Assembly (NCBI GenBank): GCA_012270585.1
Contig: JAAXIB010000089.1
Location: 1 to 39,470, forward strand
Source: Nitrospirales bacterium
GTDB taxonomy: Bacteria > Nitrospirota > Nitrospiria > Nitrospirales > UBA8639
Direction: 5' to 3'
DNA length: 39,470 bases
Shown here: one piece after another, positions 7,179 to 17,170 of the stretch
How the letters are laid out: every line of letters starts with the position of its first letter
How positions within the stretch are numbered: the first letter of the stretch is position 1
The notes under the pieces: model-generated
What the model was told of the DNA's origin: nothing
The model's database searches: none
The model's input: only the letters and a program-made list of their open reading frames with translations
Program-made: the position numbers and the translations under genes

Positions 7179-8228
7179 ATGATCGAATACAAGACTGGCG
7201 ATATTCTTTCCGAAGAAGCCGAAGCCCTAGTCAATAGCGTCAACTGCGTGGGTGTCATGGGGCGCGGTATAGCGCTTCAATTTAAAAAAACCTTCCCCGA
7301 GAACTTCAACGCCTACGTTGCCCGATGCAAGCGCAATGAGATGCAACCCGGGCGTGTGTTCGTCTTCGAGACGGGCGAAACGATTTTCCCCCGCTACATC
7401 ATCAACTTCCCAACCAAGCGGCATTGGCGCGGCAAGAGCCGTATCGAGGACATCGAGTCCGGTTTGACATCACTGACGAAGGAGATCCGGTCGCACGGCA
7501 TCCGTTCAATTGCCATCCCGCCGCTCGGCAGCGGGCTGGGTGGATTGCACTGGCCGGAGGTGCGCGCCCGTTTAGAAACGGCTCTGAAAGCATTCGAAGA
7601 CGTCAAGGTCGTGATATTCGAGCCGGGCGGTGGACCGGCGGATGACCGTGCTAACCGTTCGAGTAACGTCCCGCAAATGACGGCAGCGCGAGCTGCGCTG
7701 GTCGGGCTGATGAATCGGTATCTTTTGGCCCTACTGGACCCATTCGTGACGCTCCTAGAAGTACACAAGCTCCTGTACTTCATGCAGGAGGCTGGCGAGC
7801 GGTTACGGCTCAACTATCAAAAGGCACCGTATGGACCTTACGCCGAGAATCTGCGGCACCTTCTGCACAAAGTTGAAGGCCATTTCATCTCCGGCTACAC
7901 CGACGGCGGCGATGCGCCTGACAAGCAATTAGAACTGGTGCCTGGTGCCGTTGAAGATGCGAACGCTTTCCTTGCGCGCCACCCGGAAACACACCGACGT
8001 TTCAACAAAGTCGTCAATCTCATCGAAGGGTTCGAGTCTTCATTCGGCCTGGAACTTTTGTCCACGGTTCATTGGGTCGCGAGCAAGGAACAAGCCCAAA
8101 TCATCGATGACGTGGCGCAACGCACCTACGCCTGGAATGACCGGAAGAAGCAGTTTTCCCGGCGTCAGATTGATCTTGCAGTTGAGGTGCTGTCACAGAA
8201 GAAGTGGATTGACAACCTGAACATATGA
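7179..8228 (+). CDS. darG: DarG-type macrodomain antitoxin
   Basis: A 349-residue protein with an N-terminal macrodomain (about 1-155), seen in MIEYKTGDILSEEAEALVNS, the binding loop GVMGRGIALQFKK and the second loop PPLGSGLGGL. This domain removes ADP-ribose from DNA modified by DarT. The C-terminal part (about 165-349), including HKLLYFMQEAGERLRLNYQK, is the region that in DarG binds and blocks the toxin directly. The gene is intact although its partner upstream is interrupted, so it can still act as a solitary antitoxin against related DarT toxins. RBS AAAGAGG lies 13 bp before the ATG. Both genes were probably one transcript. Confidence 0.9.
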   Translation: MIEYKTGDILSEEAEALVNSVNCVGVMGRGIALQFKKTFPENFNAYVARCKRNEMQPGRVFVFETGETIFPRYIINFPTKRHWRGKSRIEDIESGLTSLTKEIRSHGIRSIAIPPLGSGLGGLHWPEVRARLETALKAFEDVKVVIFEPGGGPADDRANRSSNVPQMTAARAALVGLMNRYLLALLDPFVTLLEVHKLLYFMQEAGERLRLNYQKAPYGPYAENLRHLLHKVEGHFISGYTDGGDAPDKQLELVPGAVEDANAFLARHPETHRRFNKVVNLIEGFESSFGLELLSTVHWVASKEQAQIIDDVAQRTYAWNDRKKQFSRRQIDLAVEVLSQKKWIDNLNI

Positions 8229-8423: not shown

Positions 8424-9335
8424 TTAGCGGGTTTGTTGTTCTACGATCGGGATGATTTTTGAATCTCCGAGCAGTTCTGTGCCGAATCTGGTGTTTTCCT
8501 GGGCTTGATTGGCATATAACCTGCCTTTGGGCGCGTCAAACTTCATGTTGAGCGTTCTGGTCGCACCCGCTTCGATCGTGACGGTCACCTCCCGGGTCAG
8601 CATGGGATGCCACGCGATCACGCGGTAGGTGCCGGCGGGAATGTCGGTAATGTCATAAGCGCCATCATGTCGACTCATCGCAAAATAGGGATTGTCGACC
8701 GCCAGGCCCCAACTTTCCATGTAGGCGTGGAACCCGCATTGCATCACAAACACGTTTCTTCCTTTCCTCATCCTGACGGGTTGCATCATGACTTTGCCTG
8801 CTCGATTTTTCACCAGTCGCCCAGCCATAAAGTCGTTTTTCTGTAAACGGCGGCTCATGGGTAAAGGAACGTTGAATAACACCCGCGCCCCGAGATGGGA
8901 CGTTTCGTAGGCCTGAATGTCGTGCATGACAGGATCCAGGTTCACCACTTCTACCTTATCCCGATCTCGCACGACCGTAATATAGGGAACAAATTGACAG
9001 TCCAATGCCTCGATCCTGGGGGTTTCAAATTCAAACGATTTTCCCTTTTTGATATTTTGAATAAACACCACGACGTCTTTCAGCCCATTCCCCACCCCCA
9101 CTTGAAACGGCTGAAGCAATCGCCATCCTTTTCCATCCGATATCCGTCCGCAAAAGAAGGGGTCGGGAAACGTGACGAGGTTGTATCCTTTGGGGGCGGG
9201 GACGGCTCCCGCCAGGATGATTCTCCCCATGAGGGTTCCTCCATTTTCAACGGTGACTTCCTCGTAGCCCCAGCTCAATGACACGGGCATGATGCATCCT
9301 ATGATGAAGATGAACTTGAAGAGTCGTCGGCACAT
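8424..9335 (-). CDS. Secreted cupredoxin-like protein with carboxypeptidase-regulatory-like domain
   Basis: A 303-residue protein with a signal peptide (MCRRLFKFIFIIGCIMPVSLSWG, cleavage near residue 24). The middle has a blue-copper-like pattern: the first His in LDPVMHDIQAY, then C-G-F-H-A-Y-M in VMQCGFHAYMESW, giving the His, Cys, His and Met set of type 1 sites. A C-terminal beta-sandwich (DGAYDITDIPAGTYRVIAWHP to NMKFDAP) resembles carboxypeptidase-regulatory-like domains, as in proteins labelled methylamine utilization. The frame extends upstream to 9653 but that part overlaps the oxidase. ATG 9335 begins the signal peptide and has GAGGGGG before it. It lies just downstream of the multicopper oxidase on the same strand and is a candidate periplasmic electron partner for it. 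Confidence 0.75.
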   Translation of the reverse strand: MCRRLFKFIFIIGCIMPVSLSWGYEEVTVENGGTLMGRIILAGAVPAPKGYNLVTFPDPFFCGRISDGKGWRLLQPFQVGVGNGLKDVVVFIQNIKKGKSFEFETPRIEALDCQFVPYITVVRDRDKVEVVNLDPVMHDIQAYETSHLGARVLFNVPLPMSRRLQKNDFMAGRLVKNRAGKVMMQPVRMRKGRNVFVMQCGFHAYMESWGLAVDNPYFAMSRHDGAYDITDIPAGTYRVIAWHPMLTREVTVTIEAGATRTLNMKFDAPKGRLYANQAQENTRFGTELLGDSKIIPIVEQQTR

Positions 9336-9408: not shown

Positions 9409-12400
9409 TTACTTGAAGGACGCCGGTGTGGCTTTGAGGCTTTCAGATGGATCAGCCTCCACCTGGCGCAGGATTGGCGATCCCCCGCCGAGTGGCAGAA
9501 CTCGCTGGTCGTTGGCAGGGAGCACCCTGAGGTACCCCCATTGACCTGATTGAGAGTAGGGCAGCCGTCCGTTGCTCCACACATAATCCCCGGCCAGCGC
9601 CCATCTCCCCCCGGCCGACGGCAGGAACACGTCCAAGCCTTCCGAACCGGCAAACTCCACGGTACTGATCATATCCGCTCCGGGAAGGAAGGGTTCAATG
9701 GGCCATTCGTGTTTTTCCACCGTGAACATCCCGTTCTGTTCGCTACTGGCCCCGAACACGTGGATACGGACTTGATCTCCCGCATGCGCCTCAATGATCG
9801 GCGTGACGGGATCCTGCGGATTATCAACTTCACAGGGCTGGAACATGCGACCGAGCGAGCACCCTGCTTCTTCACGATACAGGTACGGCTCCGCTCGATA
9901 GTTCACCCCCGTCAACCCGGCCACGTTTTGCACGTAGGGCATGAAGCTGGTCCCGATGATGTTATCCTCGTCCTGGAAATACAACGCCACGTCACGATAG
10001 TTTTCGCGGCCTTCGTTCCCCGGAATGGTGCGATCCACCATGACGTCGGCCCGCCAACTGTTTTTCAGGGAAACGTCTTTCCCGGTCCTGGGATCGCGGT
10101 ACGTCGAGCCCTTGGGGCCGATAATGACTCCGCCGAACAACCCGTTCCGAGGATTGGTGGTCACGTTCCCCCAGTCCCACACCAACGTTTGCCCTTCTCC
10201 ATTAAAGGGGTCGGCGTAGTAGGTGTAGAGGCGAGACTTCCCGGGAGCCACGGTTTGATCTCCGGGGTTGTTGCCGAGGTTGACCCCCTGGGAATCTTTC
10301 GGGTCAAACGCCAAGCCAAAGGCTGAGAACGACGCCCGCCCCTCCTTGAGCTTATTCGTGAGCTTGATTTTGAGGCAGTCGCCCACGTTGGCCCGAAGGG
10401 TCAACGGCATGGGTTGCGCATCCCCGGAAATCGTTCTGACGTCATTCTCAAGCACGTAAATCTTGGCTTCCGGATTGCGCAGTTTGATCTTGCGTTCAAA
10501 GTCGACTTCAATGGCCTCCGGCGCATTGGAATTGAAGCTCATGTCCGGATGATCCATCGCCACCACGTTAAATTGCTTCACCGGCGCATCCGATGGACAA
10601 ACCGGGAGCGATTCCGGAATGCCTTCCCTGCCGTATGCTTTGTTGGGCAGCGGTTGAAGATCGGAGACCGGGGCATCCAACACTCTGATGATACCCCACG
10701 CCCCTTCCGAGAACTTGGAATTCCGCCCATTGAAGAACATGTAATCGCCAGGCCGATGGCGAGGGCCGCCGGCTTCGGCAATCACCAGGTCATAGCGCTC
10801 GGCGATGCCGACGTGCAGGGCATTCTTTCGATTGGCTTCCTCCGCGTACCGTTCCGACCAGAACGTATGCCCGGAGATGGTAAACACGTTGCTCTCGTTC
10901 ATCGTAACGTCCAGCAACCGGAACACGATGGCGTCGCCCAGATACGCACGCAGCATCGCCGTACTCGGATCACCGTGCACGCGACTGCTGAATAGCTTTG
11001 CAGGATCCGGGTCGTTTGCCAAACGCTGGGCAAACGGCTCGGCACGAAAATTCAGTGCCCCCCCTGTGGTATGTGTCCCTCCATTGAGGAAGGGCATGGG
11101 GGTCATTTTGATCGTCTCGTTGGGCGGCATCTGGAACGACACGGTACGACCCGCTTCCAACGCGACTTCCACCGGTTGCCCCGGTGGATTCCCGGCCGTC
11201 ACCACGTTCACCGTATGCGGGACGGTATCCATGATGTGCACCATCAATTCACGGAAACTGCCGGCGACGTCATGGCCGACCCGTTCCGTTGCATGAATAT
11301 CCGCAACCGGCCCGGTCCTGATCCGTTTGCCTGTTTTGGGATCATGCCAGGTGGAGCCGAACGGCTCGGCAATCATCGTGCCCACGGCACCGTGCGGCCA
11401 GGTCGTCCCACCAAAGGCGTGGTCGTGCCAGAAGACGCTGCCCACGTCCGCATCCACCCAGAACCGTTGCCGGACGTACTCCACCGTGACAATATCGCCG
11501 GCCGGATGCGCATGTTCCAGCGGTGTATCAAACGTGAGGGTCTTCTCGCCGATTGCGGCGATACGAAGCACTTCCTTCCCCTCCACGTTATCCGCTCCCA
11601 CTAAAATGGGAATGCCCACGTGATATTGCCCGGCATTCGTCACGTGAATGGTTTTGTCTCCCTTCTTCGCCGCCTTGACGACTTTCGCATTCATGGGTAC
11701 GGGCAACCCTTTCTCGGTGTCTTTCGTAAACTGCGTAAAGGGTCGCATTGATTGCTCGTACGACATGCCCGAAATCACGCCGTCGGAGGCTTGATTGTCA
11801 AACTGGAAAAAATGGAAATGCGTATTGATCTTGGAGGATTGGAAATTGGTAAAGTCATCATCCAACCACTCACTGGTCAGCGTCCAATCAATACAATCGT
11901 ACACGTTCGCTCGAACGACCAGTGGAAACCTTTTGTCGTTGTCGGCTCGAACGTCCGCCTCTTCTTCATGAACCACGTAGAGCAACCCGTTGGGATCAAC
12001 GATGGCCGGCTCCTTGCCTTGGGCCGCGGACAATTCAATCGGCAGTTTGATGAAATGAATATTATAATCCTGGGACCCTGCCCGATCCGGACACAGGCTC
12101 CAGTTCCCGTTTTCTCCCGGCTTGGCCGGTCCCACCGACCGGGTTCCGTCGTCGTTGAGTCGAATCATTTCCAACCACGGGGCCGGATTATGATCGTTGG
12201 AAAACGGTGCGCGTTTTCCAAAATGCGGCGTCAACCACGGCCACGCGACTTTCCCCGTCGCGGGCTCAAACCAGATGGGGCGGCGTTTTCCGGGTTCATA
12301 GCCTTGCCATTCGGGCTGATACTTCGGATTCTCGCCGATAGCGGCTTCTTTTTCGCTCACCGCGCGATTCCCCTGCCACACCCAATCGACCACCGTGGCA

Positions 12401-14313
12401 TCATAGGCCTTGAGCTGGCCGAGTTCGTCGTCCTGATGGCCCGGTTTGCCTTGATTGCTGAGCTGCATGGACACCCAGTCTTTCAGCGTGACCACCGGAG
12501 GGTCGGCTTTCCAATTGCTCGTTCCGCCCTCCACGATCCTGAATTGACTTCCAAACCAATTCACGGTCGCCCCGACTAATTGATCCGACGTCACGGGCTT
12601 GTTGATTCGTCCAAGCCGGTCCGGCAATTCCCGCAAGGGCGCCATCACGTCATTTTGAATTCCGGGAATTTGCAGGGTGTTGTAGACTCTCCAATACCCC
12701 CACATTCCCGCGACGTAGTGATGGGCAACGTGGCAGTGAAACAGGAAATCCCCGGCCAGCCATTGACACAACCCGGACCCGCATTCCGTTTCCAGATCCA
12801 GGGCTTCCGAGGGTCCGATCACCTCCACGTCCACGCGGTCCGATTTGGTGCGGACCACCGGATACTTCACGGGCCCGTTCTGGCCGGTGCTCCACACGGG
12901 CATTTGCGTAGCCCGCGGGCTGCGCTGCCACCGAATGGCTCCGCCATGCGGATGGTGGGAATGGAACACTTCCGATCCGCCGTGTACGACGCGAAACTTC
13001 GCGGGATCCCCCAAATAGCTGCGTGGAATCGTCGGCGCCGCGTCGCCGAACGTATACGAGCCATACGCCATGGATTCATCTTCAAACCCGAAATATTCGT
13101 GTTGCACGTGCATGTTGTTGATACCGAACGGTTCGCTGCGATAGTTCAAGGCCCGTGCTCCCGGACGATAGGCGTCCGTCAGCGGGTCGCGTTGAGGCAG
13201 GAAGTCACCGTGCTTGTTCACCGGACGAAACGCTTCATCACCCACCTCGTGATAAATCAACACGAACTCGCGAAAATCCGGGCCCGTGCCGTTTTTGATC
13301 ATCGTCTGCCAGCCGCTTCGGTCTTTCGTGGCAGGACCCATTCCCAACGGATCATAGTACTCCGACCCGCGCGGCTCGACGACAAACACCCCAAACAACC
13401 CCATGACCGTCAGTTCCCGGTCATTACTATAGGTATGGAATTGTCGTCCACCCTCCTGGGTCTCCGGATGGATGTACCATTCCATCTCAATGGCCTCTCC
13501 GACACAATTCTCTTCACAATCTTCGGGAGGACCGCCCGCCACCGAATCCGGATTGGTCGTGGTCGCCGGCTGCCCGGTTTTACTCATGACCATATCGGAT
13601 CCATTGACGTGGAGGCTGACCTCTTCGCCGAATTCCAACACATTCCGAAGCGTGATTTTCACGCAATCGCCCTGGTTGCCACGAATCACCAAGGGCTGAA
13701 TCCATTGATCCTGGATCCCATTTTTGACGCCACCGGGATCATGATGGCCTTCTTTCTCCCGGGCCGCCGCGTTCTTTGCTTCTTCTGCACGAATTTTGGG
13801 AATGTCTTCGGTAAGGGCATACATATAGCCGGGATAGAAATCCAACCATTGATTCAAGGTGATCTCCACGTTGATCGCGGAGATGTCATAGTGCCTCACC
13901 GGTCCGGTTTTGGGGCACAAGCCCCCCTTCATCGAAACCGGCTCGACATCGGAATTGGAGGCCAGTAACCCGTTGGCCGGTCCGGCCCCGTACTGGTGCA
14001 TCATCGACATGGCATTGAAGGCGCCCGACGTGTCGCCCTTGTGCTGCACGTCTTTTTGCATCTGCTGCATCAAACGCTGGTGTTGCAACTCAACCAGCGC
14101 TGCGCGCTCAGCGCGTCCTTCCACTGCGTTTTCCATGATGGTTTGGCCTTTGAGCCGTTCGGCCCACCCTGGTGACCCGGAAGACATGGACACCTGATGG
14201 ACGGCAGGAGACGCCTCTTGCGCCTCGGCCAAAGCCTGCATGCCGAACGGCATGGCCCCAACGGCCAAGGCCACCGTTACCGTAAACAGGAACCGTGTCG
14301 CGTAACACATCAT
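9409..14313 (-). CDS. Giant six-domain multicopper oxidase (MofA/MnxG-like size), secreted
   Basis: A 1634-residue exported protein with signal peptide MMCYATRFLFTVTVALAVG. The copper motifs are complete but permuted: HxxHxH (H451, H454, H456 in FHSHHPHGG) and the type 1 motif HCH-x3-H-x4-M (H526 to M537) come first. The HxH motifs H832/H834 (NTHFHFF) and H963/H965 (FWHDHAFGG) come later. In laccases the HxH pair is N-terminal. Repeated units RAEPF, LRANVGDC and GDYMFFNGR/GDYVWSNGR mark about six cupredoxin domains in three pairs. Size and layout recall the manganese oxidases MofA and MnxG; the substrate here is unproven. AGGAGG lies 4 bp before ATG 14313 and 7 bp before the adjacent ATG 14310. 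It lies downstream of a sigma-54-type promoter and a matching two-component system. Confidence 0.88.
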   Translation of the reverse strand: MMCYATRFLFTVTVALAVGAMPFGMQALAEAQEASPAVHQVSMSSGSPGWAERLKGQTIMENAVEGRAERAALVELQHQRLMQQMQKDVQHKGDTSGAFNAMSMMHQYGAGPANGLLASNSDVEPVSMKGGLCPKTGPVRHYDISAINVEITLNQWLDFYPGYMYALTEDIPKIRAEEAKNAAAREKEGHHDPGGVKNGIQDQWIQPLVIRGNQGDCVKITLRNVLEFGEEVSLHVNGSDMVMSKTGQPATTTNPDSVAGGPPEDCEENCVGEAIEMEWYIHPETQEGGRQFHTYSNDRELTVMGLFGVFVVEPRGSEYYDPLGMGPATKDRSGWQTMIKNGTGPDFREFVLIYHEVGDEAFRPVNKHGDFLPQRDPLTDAYRPGARALNYRSEPFGINNMHVQHEYFGFEDESMAYGSYTFGDAAPTIPRSYLGDPAKFRVVHGGSEVFHSHHPHGGAIRWQRSPRATQMPVWSTGQNGPVKYPVVRTKSDRVDVEVIGPSEALDLETECGSGLCQWLAGDFLFHCHVAHHYVAGMWGYWRVYNTLQIPGIQNDVMAPLRELPDRLGRINKPVTSDQLVGATVNWFGSQFRIVEGGTSNWKADPPVVTLKDWVSMQLSNQGKPGHQDDELGQLKAYDATVVDWVWQGNRAVSEKEAAIGENPKYQPEWQGYEPGKRRPIWFEPATGKVAWPWLTPHFGKRAPFSNDHNPAPWLEMIRLNDDGTRSVGPAKPGENGNWSLCPDRAGSQDYNIHFIKLPIELSAAQGKEPAIVDPNGLLYVVHEEEADVRADNDKRFPLVVRANVYDCIDWTLTSEWLDDDFTNFQSSKINTHFHFFQFDNQASDGVISGMSYEQSMRPFTQFTKDTEKGLPVPMNAKVVKAAKKGDKTIHVTNAGQYHVGIPILVGADNVEGKEVLRIAAIGEKTLTFDTPLEHAHPAGDIVTVEYVRQRFWVDADVGSVFWHDHAFGGTTWPHGAVGTMIAEPFGSTWHDPKTGKRIRTGPVADIHATERVGHDVAGSFRELMVHIMDTVPHTVNVVTAGNPPGQPVEVALEAGRTVSFQMPPNETIKMTPMPFLNGGTHTTGGALNFRAEPFAQRLANDPDPAKLFSSRVHGDPSTAMLRAYLGDAIVFRLLDVTMNESNVFTISGHTFWSERYAEEANRKNALHVGIAERYDLVIAEAGGPRHRPGDYMFFNGRNSKFSEGAWGIIRVLDAPVSDLQPLPNKAYGREGIPESLPVCPSDAPVKQFNVVAMDHPDMSFNSNAPEAIEVDFERKIKLRNPEAKIYVLENDVRTISGDAQPMPLTLRANVGDCLKIKLTNKLKEGRASFSAFGLAFDPKDSQGVNLGNNPGDQTVAPGKSRLYTYYADPFNGEGQTLVWDWGNVTTNPRNGLFGGVIIGPKGSTYRDPRTGKDVSLKNSWRADVMVDRTIPGNEGRENYRDVALYFQDEDNIIGTSFMPYVQNVAGLTGVNYRAEPYLYREEAGCSLGRMFQPCEVDNPQDPVTPIIEAHAGDQVRIHVFGASSEQNGMFTVEKHEWPIEPFLPGADMISTVEFAGSEGLDVFLPSAGGRWALAGDYVWSNGRLPYSQSGQWGYLRVLPANDQRVLPLGGGSPILRQVEADPSESLKATPASFK

Positions 14314-14590: not shown

Positions 14591-15778
14591 CTAGGATGAC
14601 GTGCCGGCCTGATGGACGGGTAGGCCAATATGAAACGTCGTGCCCTGTCCGGGTTCACTTTCCACCGTAATGGAACCCTGATGCTCCTCGATAATGCCGT
14701 GAACAACCGTGAGTCCCAACCCCGTCCCTTCCCCCACCTCTTTGGTGGAAAAAAATGGCGTGAAGAGTTTCGGAAGGTGCTCGGGAGGAATACCGCAGCC
14801 CGTATCGGAGACCGACAGATGCACGTGATCGTTGCGGCAACGGAGTCTGAGGGATAGGAACCCGCCCCCGGGCATCGCCTGAATGGCGTTGACGATTAAA
14901 TTCAAGAGAACCTGTCCCATCTGATCCCGGTCGGCCAACACTTTCGGGCAGTTCGGCTCCAGGTCCACCTCAAGCTGGATGCCTCGTTTTTCCAGTCGTT
15001 CTTGAATCACGTCCACGATATCATGCACCACCAGAGACACGGCGAGCGGGCGGCGTTCAATGGGTTTTTGTCTGGCAAAACTCAACAACTGATTCATGAT
15101 TTTCGTGATACGCTCGACCTGCGCCACAATGGTGATTAATCCTTTCCTGGTCGATTCATCCGAAGCCTTTCGCATCAGGTACTCGGCTCGCCCGAGAATA
15201 ACGTTCATGGGCGTTCCGATTTCATGAGCCATGCCGGCAGCCAGCGTGCCCAATTCAGCCAATCGTTCGGCCTGACGCAGTTGACTTTCCAATCCCTTCC
15301 GTTCCGTGATATCCCGAAGGATCACGGTAAAAAATCGTTGCTCGCCTTTTTTGAATTGAGAAATAGACGCCTCAATGGGAAATTCTTCTCCATTGGCACG
15401 CAGCCCCGATACCGCACCCAAGGCTCCCATGCGACGGTCTGTGGCTTGGGCTTTTCCAAAACGCTTCACGTGTTGATGATGCACGGTGCGAAACCGATCC
15501 GGAAGAAACCGGTCGATGGAATGCCCCATGGCGTCCCTGGCCGAACAGCCGAACATGGTTTCCGCAGCCGCATTAAACTGCACCACGCGTTGTTTATCAT
15601 TGATGGTGATGATGGCATCCATGGCCGACTGGATAATCCCGGCCAGTTGGGGCTCAACGGCTTGCAATCCTTTTGCAGGCCCATGACGGACGACTGCCCG
15701 GGATCGCAGTTCGGCGAGTTCCCGGCGAAGAGTTTCGACCTCTTTCACAAGTTGGGCTTTAGAGGGGGACAGCGCCAT
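14591..15778 (-). CDS. PAS-domain sensor histidine kinase
   Basis: A 395-residue soluble kinase. A short coiled N-terminus (about 7-30) leads into a PAS domain (about 45-160, ending RDITERKGLE), then HisKA with the phosphorylated H185 in GMAHEIGTPMN, then HATPase_c with the N-box (NLIVNAIQAM), G1 (DTGCGIPP) and G2 (GTGLGL). No membrane segment is present, so it senses a cytoplasmic signal, perhaps redox or a ligand in PAS. This is the NtrB/ZraS-like layout. It starts 21 bp after the stop of the sigma-54 response regulator, in one operon, and is its evident partner. The gene order regulator-kinase-oxidase points to control of the oxidase. Confidence 0.92.
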   Translation of the reverse strand: MALSPSKAQLVKEVETLRRELAELRSRAVVRHGPAKGLQAVEPQLAGIIQSAMDAIITINDKQRVVQFNAAAETMFGCSARDAMGHSIDRFLPDRFRTVHHQHVKRFGKAQATDRRMGALGAVSGLRANGEEFPIEASISQFKKGEQRFFTVILRDITERKGLESQLRQAERLAELGTLAAGMAHEIGTPMNVILGRAEYLMRKASDESTRKGLITIVAQVERITKIMNQLLSFARQKPIERRPLAVSLVVHDIVDVIQERLEKRGIQLEVDLEPNCPKVLADRDQMGQVLLNLIVNAIQAMPGGGFLSLRLRCRNDHVHLSVSDTGCGIPPEHLPKLFTPFFSTKEVGEGTGLGLTVVHGIIEEHQGSITVESEPGQGTTFHIGLPVHQAGTSS

Positions 15779-15799: not shown

Positions 15800-17170
15800 T
15801 CAGGAGGCTGATCGTTCCATTTCTTCCAATTTCCGGTAGAGGGTCTTCCGGTCGATTCCCAGGATCTGCGCCGCTTGAAATTTATTGCCTCGAGTCTTTT
15901 CCAAAATCCTTTTGATATACACGCGCTCGACTTCTTCCATCGAAAGCGACCGTTCGACTCCATCCTCAATCAACCGTCGTGCGCCATTGGCCTCGCGAAT
16001 GATGGGGGGTAACGCTTCGACGGTCACGCTGTCCCCCGACGCCAGGGTGACGGCGCGCTCGATCACGTTTTCCAATTCCCGAACGTTGCCGGGCCAGTTG
16101 TAATCCATCAACAACCCAAGTGCCGATTCGGCGATTCCCGTCAGCGGCTTGTCCCGTCCTCTCGCCATCCTGTGAAGCAACGTCTCGCAGAGCAGGGGAA
16201 TATCTTCTTTGCGTTCACGCAAGGGAGGAAGCCGAATTTCAATGACGTTCAGACGGTAGTACAAGTCTTCCCGAAACCGTTTGGCGTGCACTTCCTCCGC
16301 CAACAACAAATTCGTGGCCGCGATGATCCGGACATTCACGGGAATGGATTGCGTCGCGCCCACCCGACGAATTTCCCGTTCCTGGACGACACGCAATAAT
16401 TTTGCTTGCAGCAGCATCGGCATTTCACTGATTTCATCCAAAAACAGCGTGCCCTTCTGAGCTTCTTCGAACAACCCGCGTTTATCGGATCTGGCATCGG
16501 TAAAGGCCCCTTTCACGTGCCCGAACAATTCGCTTTCCAGAAGCTGTTCGGGAATCGCCGCACAATTCACCGGAATAAACGGGGCATCCTTGCGGCGACT
16601 GTTAAAATGTATGGCCTTGGCCACCAACTCTTTTCCCGTCCCGCTTTCGCCGGTAATGAGTATATTCGCCTGGGAGTCGGCCACGCGGCGAATAAGATCG
16701 AACACCTCTCGCATGGGCTTGCTTTTCCCAAGAATCTGGTCAAAGGAATACTCACGATTGACCTGTTTCCGCAGGTGAGCCACTTCCCGGCGCAGGGAAG
16801 CCTCTTTGAGCGCTTTATCAATCGTCACCAGCAATTCATCCGTTTTGATGGGTTTCGTCAGATAATCGAATGCCCCCTGTTTCATTGCATTAACGGCCGA
16901 CTCCACGCTGCCGAAGGCCGTCATCATGATGGTGTTACAGGCGGGGTGGCGTTGGACAAGCTCGTGCAAAAGATCAGATCCATCCATGCCCTTCATCCGG
17001 AGATCGGTCAGCACGACGAGATATTCGTCCCTTCCCAGATGTTCAAGGGCTTCTCCTCCCTCTCGCGCAACGGCGACCTGATAGCCGTGATCTTCCAATG
17101 TGTCTTTGAGAAGGTCCCGCATTTCCTGTTCATCATCGACAATTAAGATTGAATTGGTGTGTGCTGCCAT
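15800..17170 (-). CDS. NtrC-family sigma-54-dependent response regulator
   Basis: A 456-residue activator with three domains. The receiver domain (1-120) has phospho-acceptor D56 in VVLTDLRM, acidic pair D12/D13 and K106. The AAA+ sigma-54 activation domain (about 145-380) has Walker A GESGTGKE (174-181), Walker B GTLFLDEI and the sigma-54 contact loop GAFTDA (221-226; the consensus is GAFTGA). A C-terminal Fis-type helix-turn-helix (about 415-450) ends in NKFQAAQILGIDRKTLYRKL. It is cotranscribed with the histidine kinase just downstream. The -24/-12 promoter in front of the adjacent oxidase is the obvious target. The G-to-D change in GAFTGA is also seen in other regulators and need not abolish activity. 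Confidence 0.93.
   Translation of the reverse strand: MAAHTNSILIVDDEQEMRDLLKDTLEDHGYQVAVAREGGEALEHLGRDEYLVVLTDLRMKGMDGSDLLHELVQRHPACNTIMMTAFGSVESAVNAMKQGAFDYLTKPIKTDELLVTIDKALKEASLRREVAHLRKQVNREYSFDQILGKSKPMREVFDLIRRVADSQANILITGESGTGKELVAKAIHFNSRRKDAPFIPVNCAAIPEQLLESELFGHVKGAFTDARSDKRGLFEEAQKGTLFLDEISEMPMLLQAKLLRVVQEREIRRVGATQSIPVNVRIIAATNLLLAEEVHAKRFREDLYYRLNVIEIRLPPLRERKEDIPLLCETLLHRMARGRDKPLTGIAESALGLLMDYNWPGNVRELENVIERAVTLASGDSVTVEALPPIIREANGARRLIEDGVERSLSMEEVERVYIKRILEKTRGNKFQAAQILGIDRKTLYRKLEEMERSAS

Follow-up and report, generated by a model that had tools for sequence, protein, structure and literature searches.

The window, by which we mean the whole 39,470 nt stretch of the Nitrospirales contig analyzed here, harbors a gene for a giant six-domain multicopper oxidase (9409..14313, minus strand) whose product is a secreted protein of 1634 aa, in agreement with the original prediction on coordinates. 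Its ATG, at 14313 in the window sequence, lies directly 3′ of a strong ribosome-binding site, TCAGGAGGTGAG, and the N-terminus of the 1634-aa oxidase is signal-peptide-like. On the same strand, 73 bp downstream, a second gene (8424..9335) encodes a 303-aa secreted protein in which a plastocyanin-fold domain is inserted in a carboxypeptidase-regulatory/TTR-like domain. Upstream, also on the minus strand, are genes for a PAS sensor histidine kinase (14591..15778) and a sigma-54-type response regulator resembling AtoC/NtrC (15800..17170). The plus strand of the window additionally encodes, near the cupredoxin gene, a DarG-type antitoxin with a macro domain (7179-8228; NCBIfam NF048014, 452.9 bits against a cut-off of 250).

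Four putative copper motifs lie in the oxidase at exactly the residues predicted earlier. The first, HxxHxH (residues 451-456, HSHHPH; 12946..12963, minus strand), is invariant and would by homology provide the T1 His and two trinuclear His. The second, HCHxxxHxxxxM (residues 526-537, HCHVAHHYVAGM; 12703..12738, minus strand), would contribute in order a T3 His, the T1 Cys, a T3 His, the T1 His and the T1 Met, roles that are likewise assigned by homology. Further trinuclear ligands are expected, on the same grounds, from two HxH motifs at residues 832-834 (HFH; 11812..11820, minus strand) and 963-965 (HDH; 11419..11427, minus strand). All 12 putative ligands (H451, H454, H456, H526, C527, H528, H532, M537, H832, H834, H963 and H965) are invariant across 15 proteins of the class, the most divergent of which is 51% identical to the window protein (alignment A1), and the occurrence of these four presumptive copper motifs is therefore far beyond chance.

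The motif order is indeed permuted with respect to three-domain enzymes, as had been pointed out, but it is no distinguishing oddity. The ligands are also aligned in MnxG and in the Streptomyces, haloarchaeal and Sphingobium homologues, and the motif set and its order recur in the Priestia megaterium plasmid MnxG and in homologues from Streptomyces, Halalkalicoccus, Sphingobium, Indioceanicola and Hymenobacter. Since the six-domain oxidases aligned here share this order, bona fide MnxG included, it is not special to the window protein and we rejected it as a novelty; it is the norm among bacterial six-domain oxidases, for which a 2013 analysis put the mononuclear site in domain 2 and the trinuclear one between domains 2 and 3 (PMC3600357). 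Exceptions concern the ligands themselves: Phe replaces the T1 Met in a Rubrobacter homologue and several ligands are lost in a Pseudonocardia plasmid homologue. The window oxidase has the full T1 and trinuclear set in the order HxxHxH, HCH, HxH, HxH, in domains 2 then 3, which is the six-domain plan of the MnxG superfamily. An assignment to three-domain laccases or copper-resistance oxidases was rejected, given that the window protein shows neither their HxH-first order nor their size of ~500 aa. The protein is thus a member of a known superfamily, of a kind already noted in Nitrospira, and the kind of protein is not new.

Within that superfamily, MnxG of Bacillus sp. PL-12 (PDB 9bxa) gives the best match among solved proteins, at E 1.2e-76 by sequence and E 6.7e-122 by profile. 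No other solved protein covers most of the oxidase chain, which MnxG matches in five segments within residues 204-1415, while small "copper oxidases" trail far behind at about 1e-8 or weaker. AlphaFold modelled domains 1-4 (residues 122-1232) poorly, at pLDDT 58, with domain 2 almost unmodelled and no ligand distances that could be drawn; the top Foldseek match of this weak model is again MnxG (E 4.5e-33, rmsd 12.3), a result usable as an overall match alone. A general plan of the MnxG type, as originally proposed, is accordingly found by sequence, profile and Foldseek, with ordinary small oxidases far behind. The roughly six cupredoxin repeats of the original prediction are supported indirectly, through the five segments matching MnxG; the poor fold of domains 1-4 did not confirm them directly. 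Because of that poor model, the geometry of the copper cluster is taken from sequence homology to MnxG. H532 of the window oxidase aligns with MnxG H340, a position occupied by Ala in 9bxa, since the entry title names the Mnx H340A mutant.

The likeness to MnxG (9bxa and the Priestia megaterium plasmid homologue, which scores 1705 bits against 9bxa) thus comprises the six-domain plan, the 12 ligands in the same order and homology along most of the chain. MnxG differs in being ~400 aa shorter, in identity (32% over 1120 columns between the window oxidase and the Priestia MnxG), in falling in a separate clade and in having other neighbor genes. The window oxidase scores 125.6 bits against the MnxG equivalog NCBIfam NF041487, whose cut-off is 3100; the Bacillus-type MnxG of Priestia itself reaches only 332.6 bits, also far under that cut-off. 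A maximum-likelihood tree placed all nine Nitrospiria proteins in one group with 100/100 support, the nearest outside row being Streptomyces, and a 100/100 branch separated MnxG and the Sphingobium protein from this group. The tree had the Sphingobium homologue as a stand-in for MofA and did not include the named MofA, McoA or P. putida MnxG sequences. The Nitrospiria oxidases form a clade of their own, apart from MnxG.

OmpB/MofA of Geobacter and Leptothrix (PMC5566968) resemble the window oxidase in being large extracellular multicopper proteins linked to metals, but differ in their neighbors, which are mofB, cytochrome c or SCO genes, and are set apart here by description. The Mof type is a cluster with mofB and the cytochrome-c gene mofC (PMC5566968). 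Close 3′ of the Sphingobium homologue we find an SCO gene and a cytochrome-c gene, an arrangement that resembles the Mof type described in that paper. No mnxEF-like or mofBC-like genes were recognized beside the window oxidase, where the neighbors are instead the cupredoxin, the kinase and the regulator.

Across a phylum sample, a match to the oxidase is present in 115/296 genomes, all but one of them in the class of the window. A sample of that class returned matches in 193 of the 197 genomes (164/166 when considering good-quality genomes), many of which hold two copies. N. moscoviensis and Ca. N. defluvii are among the named carriers, and the closest relatives come from Nitrospira-like MAGs; none were found in viral contigs. 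With N. moscoviensis nxrA as query, a same-sized class sample gave only 129/197 matches, and an enzyme specific to nitrite oxidation was rejected because the oxidase is more widespread than nxrA. Two contigs labelled as Nitrosomonas and Opitutales MAGs (L070 and L066) carry oxidases 84-86% identical and are probably Nitrospiria contigs binned wrongly.

The genome of the window itself has a second copy on another contig (C64, L033:5048-10222), 77-79% identical, which carries a LysM insertion in domain 3, between the HxH motifs. In this copy Cys replaces the Trp before HDH. The LysM insertion is seen at the same place in two further loci (L076 and L135), which suggests that the LysM-bearing oxidase is a peptidoglycan-bound version.

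In the 303-aa protein encoded downstream of the oxidase, Pfam returned a weak carboxypeptidase-regulatory domain and nothing else. Its AlphaFold model (pLDDT 80) shows a domain, residues 79-191, inserted in another one, and this predicted domain (8694..9032, minus strand) superposes on plastocyanin 1bxu with Z 11.3 and rmsd 1.9. The candidate ligands are an H at 8922-8924 and the CGFHAYM stretch at 8718-8738; in mature numbering, H115, C177, H180 and M183 are invariant in 48 relatives, and C-x2-H-x2-M is an amicyanin-type loop. By its plastocyanin-like fold, as predicted, together with the His, Cys, His and Met ligands, the partner is a cupredoxin.

A gene of the partner family, defined by at least 40% identity, lies on the same strand within 2.5 kb downstream in 50 of the 61 oxidase copies with enough flank, and 23 of these 61 have two such genes in tandem. 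Of the loci with enough flank, the three nearest to the window copy (L062, L063 and L073; oxidase 94% identical) have no cupredoxin gene downstream. The family is multi-copy, with seven matches in the window's genome. A third, more distant partner relative (~26-32% identical) occurs a few kb further downstream at L129:18161-18958 and at comparable positions in many genomes. In several Nitrospira genomes (L034, L043 and L047), the oxidase and cupredoxin genes are interspersed with genes whose secreted products contain an FGE-sulfatase (formylglycine-generating-like) domain.

Sigma-54-type regulators of this family are encoded close to the oxidase in several relatives, and in N. moscoviensis a sigma-54 activator separates nxrAB from an oxidase copy ~4-5 kb downstream. 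A search for a sigma-54 promoter upstream of the oxidase gave no convincing candidate in the window or its relatives, so that control of the oxidase by the neighboring sigma-54 regulator is suggested by position alone.

Such an oxidase has been reported before. Luecker et al. (2013; PMC3578206) described a multicopper oxidase, conserved in Nitrospina gracilis and Ca. N. defluvii, that resembles the Bacillus SG-1 Mn oxidase, and placed it in the NXR gene region, whose cluster also holds two cupredoxin-like genes. An N. defluvii homologue (L129) shares 69% identity with the window protein. What we add is that the oxidase is near-universal in the class, forms a clade of its own and is conservedly paired with the cupredoxin family; the class-wide spread and the pairing go beyond the passages of that paper considered here. 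Two novel MCOs are described in all Manganitrophaceae, with the remark that a lithotrophic role would need a periplasmic electron carrier (PMC9040806). Ca. Manganitrophaceae belong to the same class; since homologues are present in its other orders, the two MCOs are likely members of the family described here. For the periplasmic carrier required by that proposal, the conserved cupredoxin offers a candidate.

Taken as a secreted six-domain oxidase of the MnxG superfamily, the window protein would hold one T1 copper and one trinuclear cluster, reduce O2 with electrons from a metal donor and work with the cupredoxin as partner, a reading to which we assign a probability of about 0.5. By homology, H451, C527, H532 and M537 would bind the T1 copper in domain 2, and H454, H456, H526, H528, H832, H834, H963 and H965, from domains 2 and 3, would build the single trinuclear cluster. 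Once copper-loaded, the enzyme would accept electrons one at a time at T1 and use them at the domain 2/3 cluster to turn O2 into water. A metal ion in the periplasm or at the surface would most likely be the donor, with Mn(II) ahead of Cu(I) and Fe(II). Mn(II) leads only because the solved relative is an Mn oxidase; we found no assay of any Nitrospiria member. The secreted blue-copper protein may contact the oxidase and would be its partner in electron exchange or copper handling, and the cupredoxin could serve as electron donor, electron acceptor or copper carrier. The match to MnxG, the conserved ligands, the class-wide presence and the gene pairing speak for this reading; the 32% identity to MnxG, the score under the equivalog cut-off, the lack of recognized mnxEF-like or mofBC-like neighbors, the three nearest loci missing the cupredoxin gene and the poor model of domains 1-4 speak against it.

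An alternative on which we look with some doubt is a function in oxidative stress, in which an Mn(II) oxidase makes Mn(III) and thereby removes superoxide in SOD-poor cells, the Mn(III)-based ROS defence that Luecker et al. proposed for Nitrospina and N. defluvii (PMC3578206). In a search confined to Fe/Mn-SOD, neither the window's genome nor two further genomes of its genus gave a hit, and the enzyme was present in 21/58 class genomes vs 12/14 controls. These counts fit the ROS proposal without proving it, but 20 of the 21 SOD-bearing genomes retain the oxidase too.

Oxidation of Cu(I) is common among multicopper oxidases, and the window enzyme could instead convert Cu(I) to Cu(II) in periplasmic copper handling, as CueO or PcoA do, with the cupredoxin as a copper-binding partner. 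The fold and ligands of the partner are consistent with this scheme and some distant homologues lie near CopC/CopD-type genes. However, no copper exporter or CopC was recognized among the tested genes beside the window copy, and typical copper-resistance oxidases are three-domain proteins weakly similar to the window protein, so that we regard it as unlikely.

A respiratory role, with oxidase and cupredoxin forming an electron path tied to nitrite oxidation, would suit the copy near nxrAB in N. moscoviensis, the similarly close copies in several other genomes and the location of the oxidase gene within the NXR region of Nitrospira and Nitrospina given by Luecker et al. It is made improbable by the many class genomes that carry the oxidase without detected nxrA (193 vs 129 of 197) and by the window's genome, in which nxrA lies on a contig other than the window's.

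The energetic interest of an extracellular metal oxidase, raised in the original prediction, is speculation: we found nothing to show that electrons reach the respiratory chain, and the protein retains an intact set of ligands for O2 reduction. It is very improbable, in our judgment, that electrons taken from a metal are handed by the oxidase to the co-encoded cupredoxin, and from there to the respiratory chain, and not only to O2; if true, an MnxG-type enzyme would serve lithotrophy in the class Nitrospiria.

Returning to the secreted MnxG-superfamily oxidase that reduces O2 with a metal donor, its significance lies in an MnxG-type oxidase being near-universal in the class that holds both major nitrite oxidizers and the manganese lithotroph Ca. 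Manganitrophus. The conserved cupredoxin partner offers a concrete, testable electron route and gives grounds for assaying nitrifiers for oxidation of Mn, Cu and Fe.
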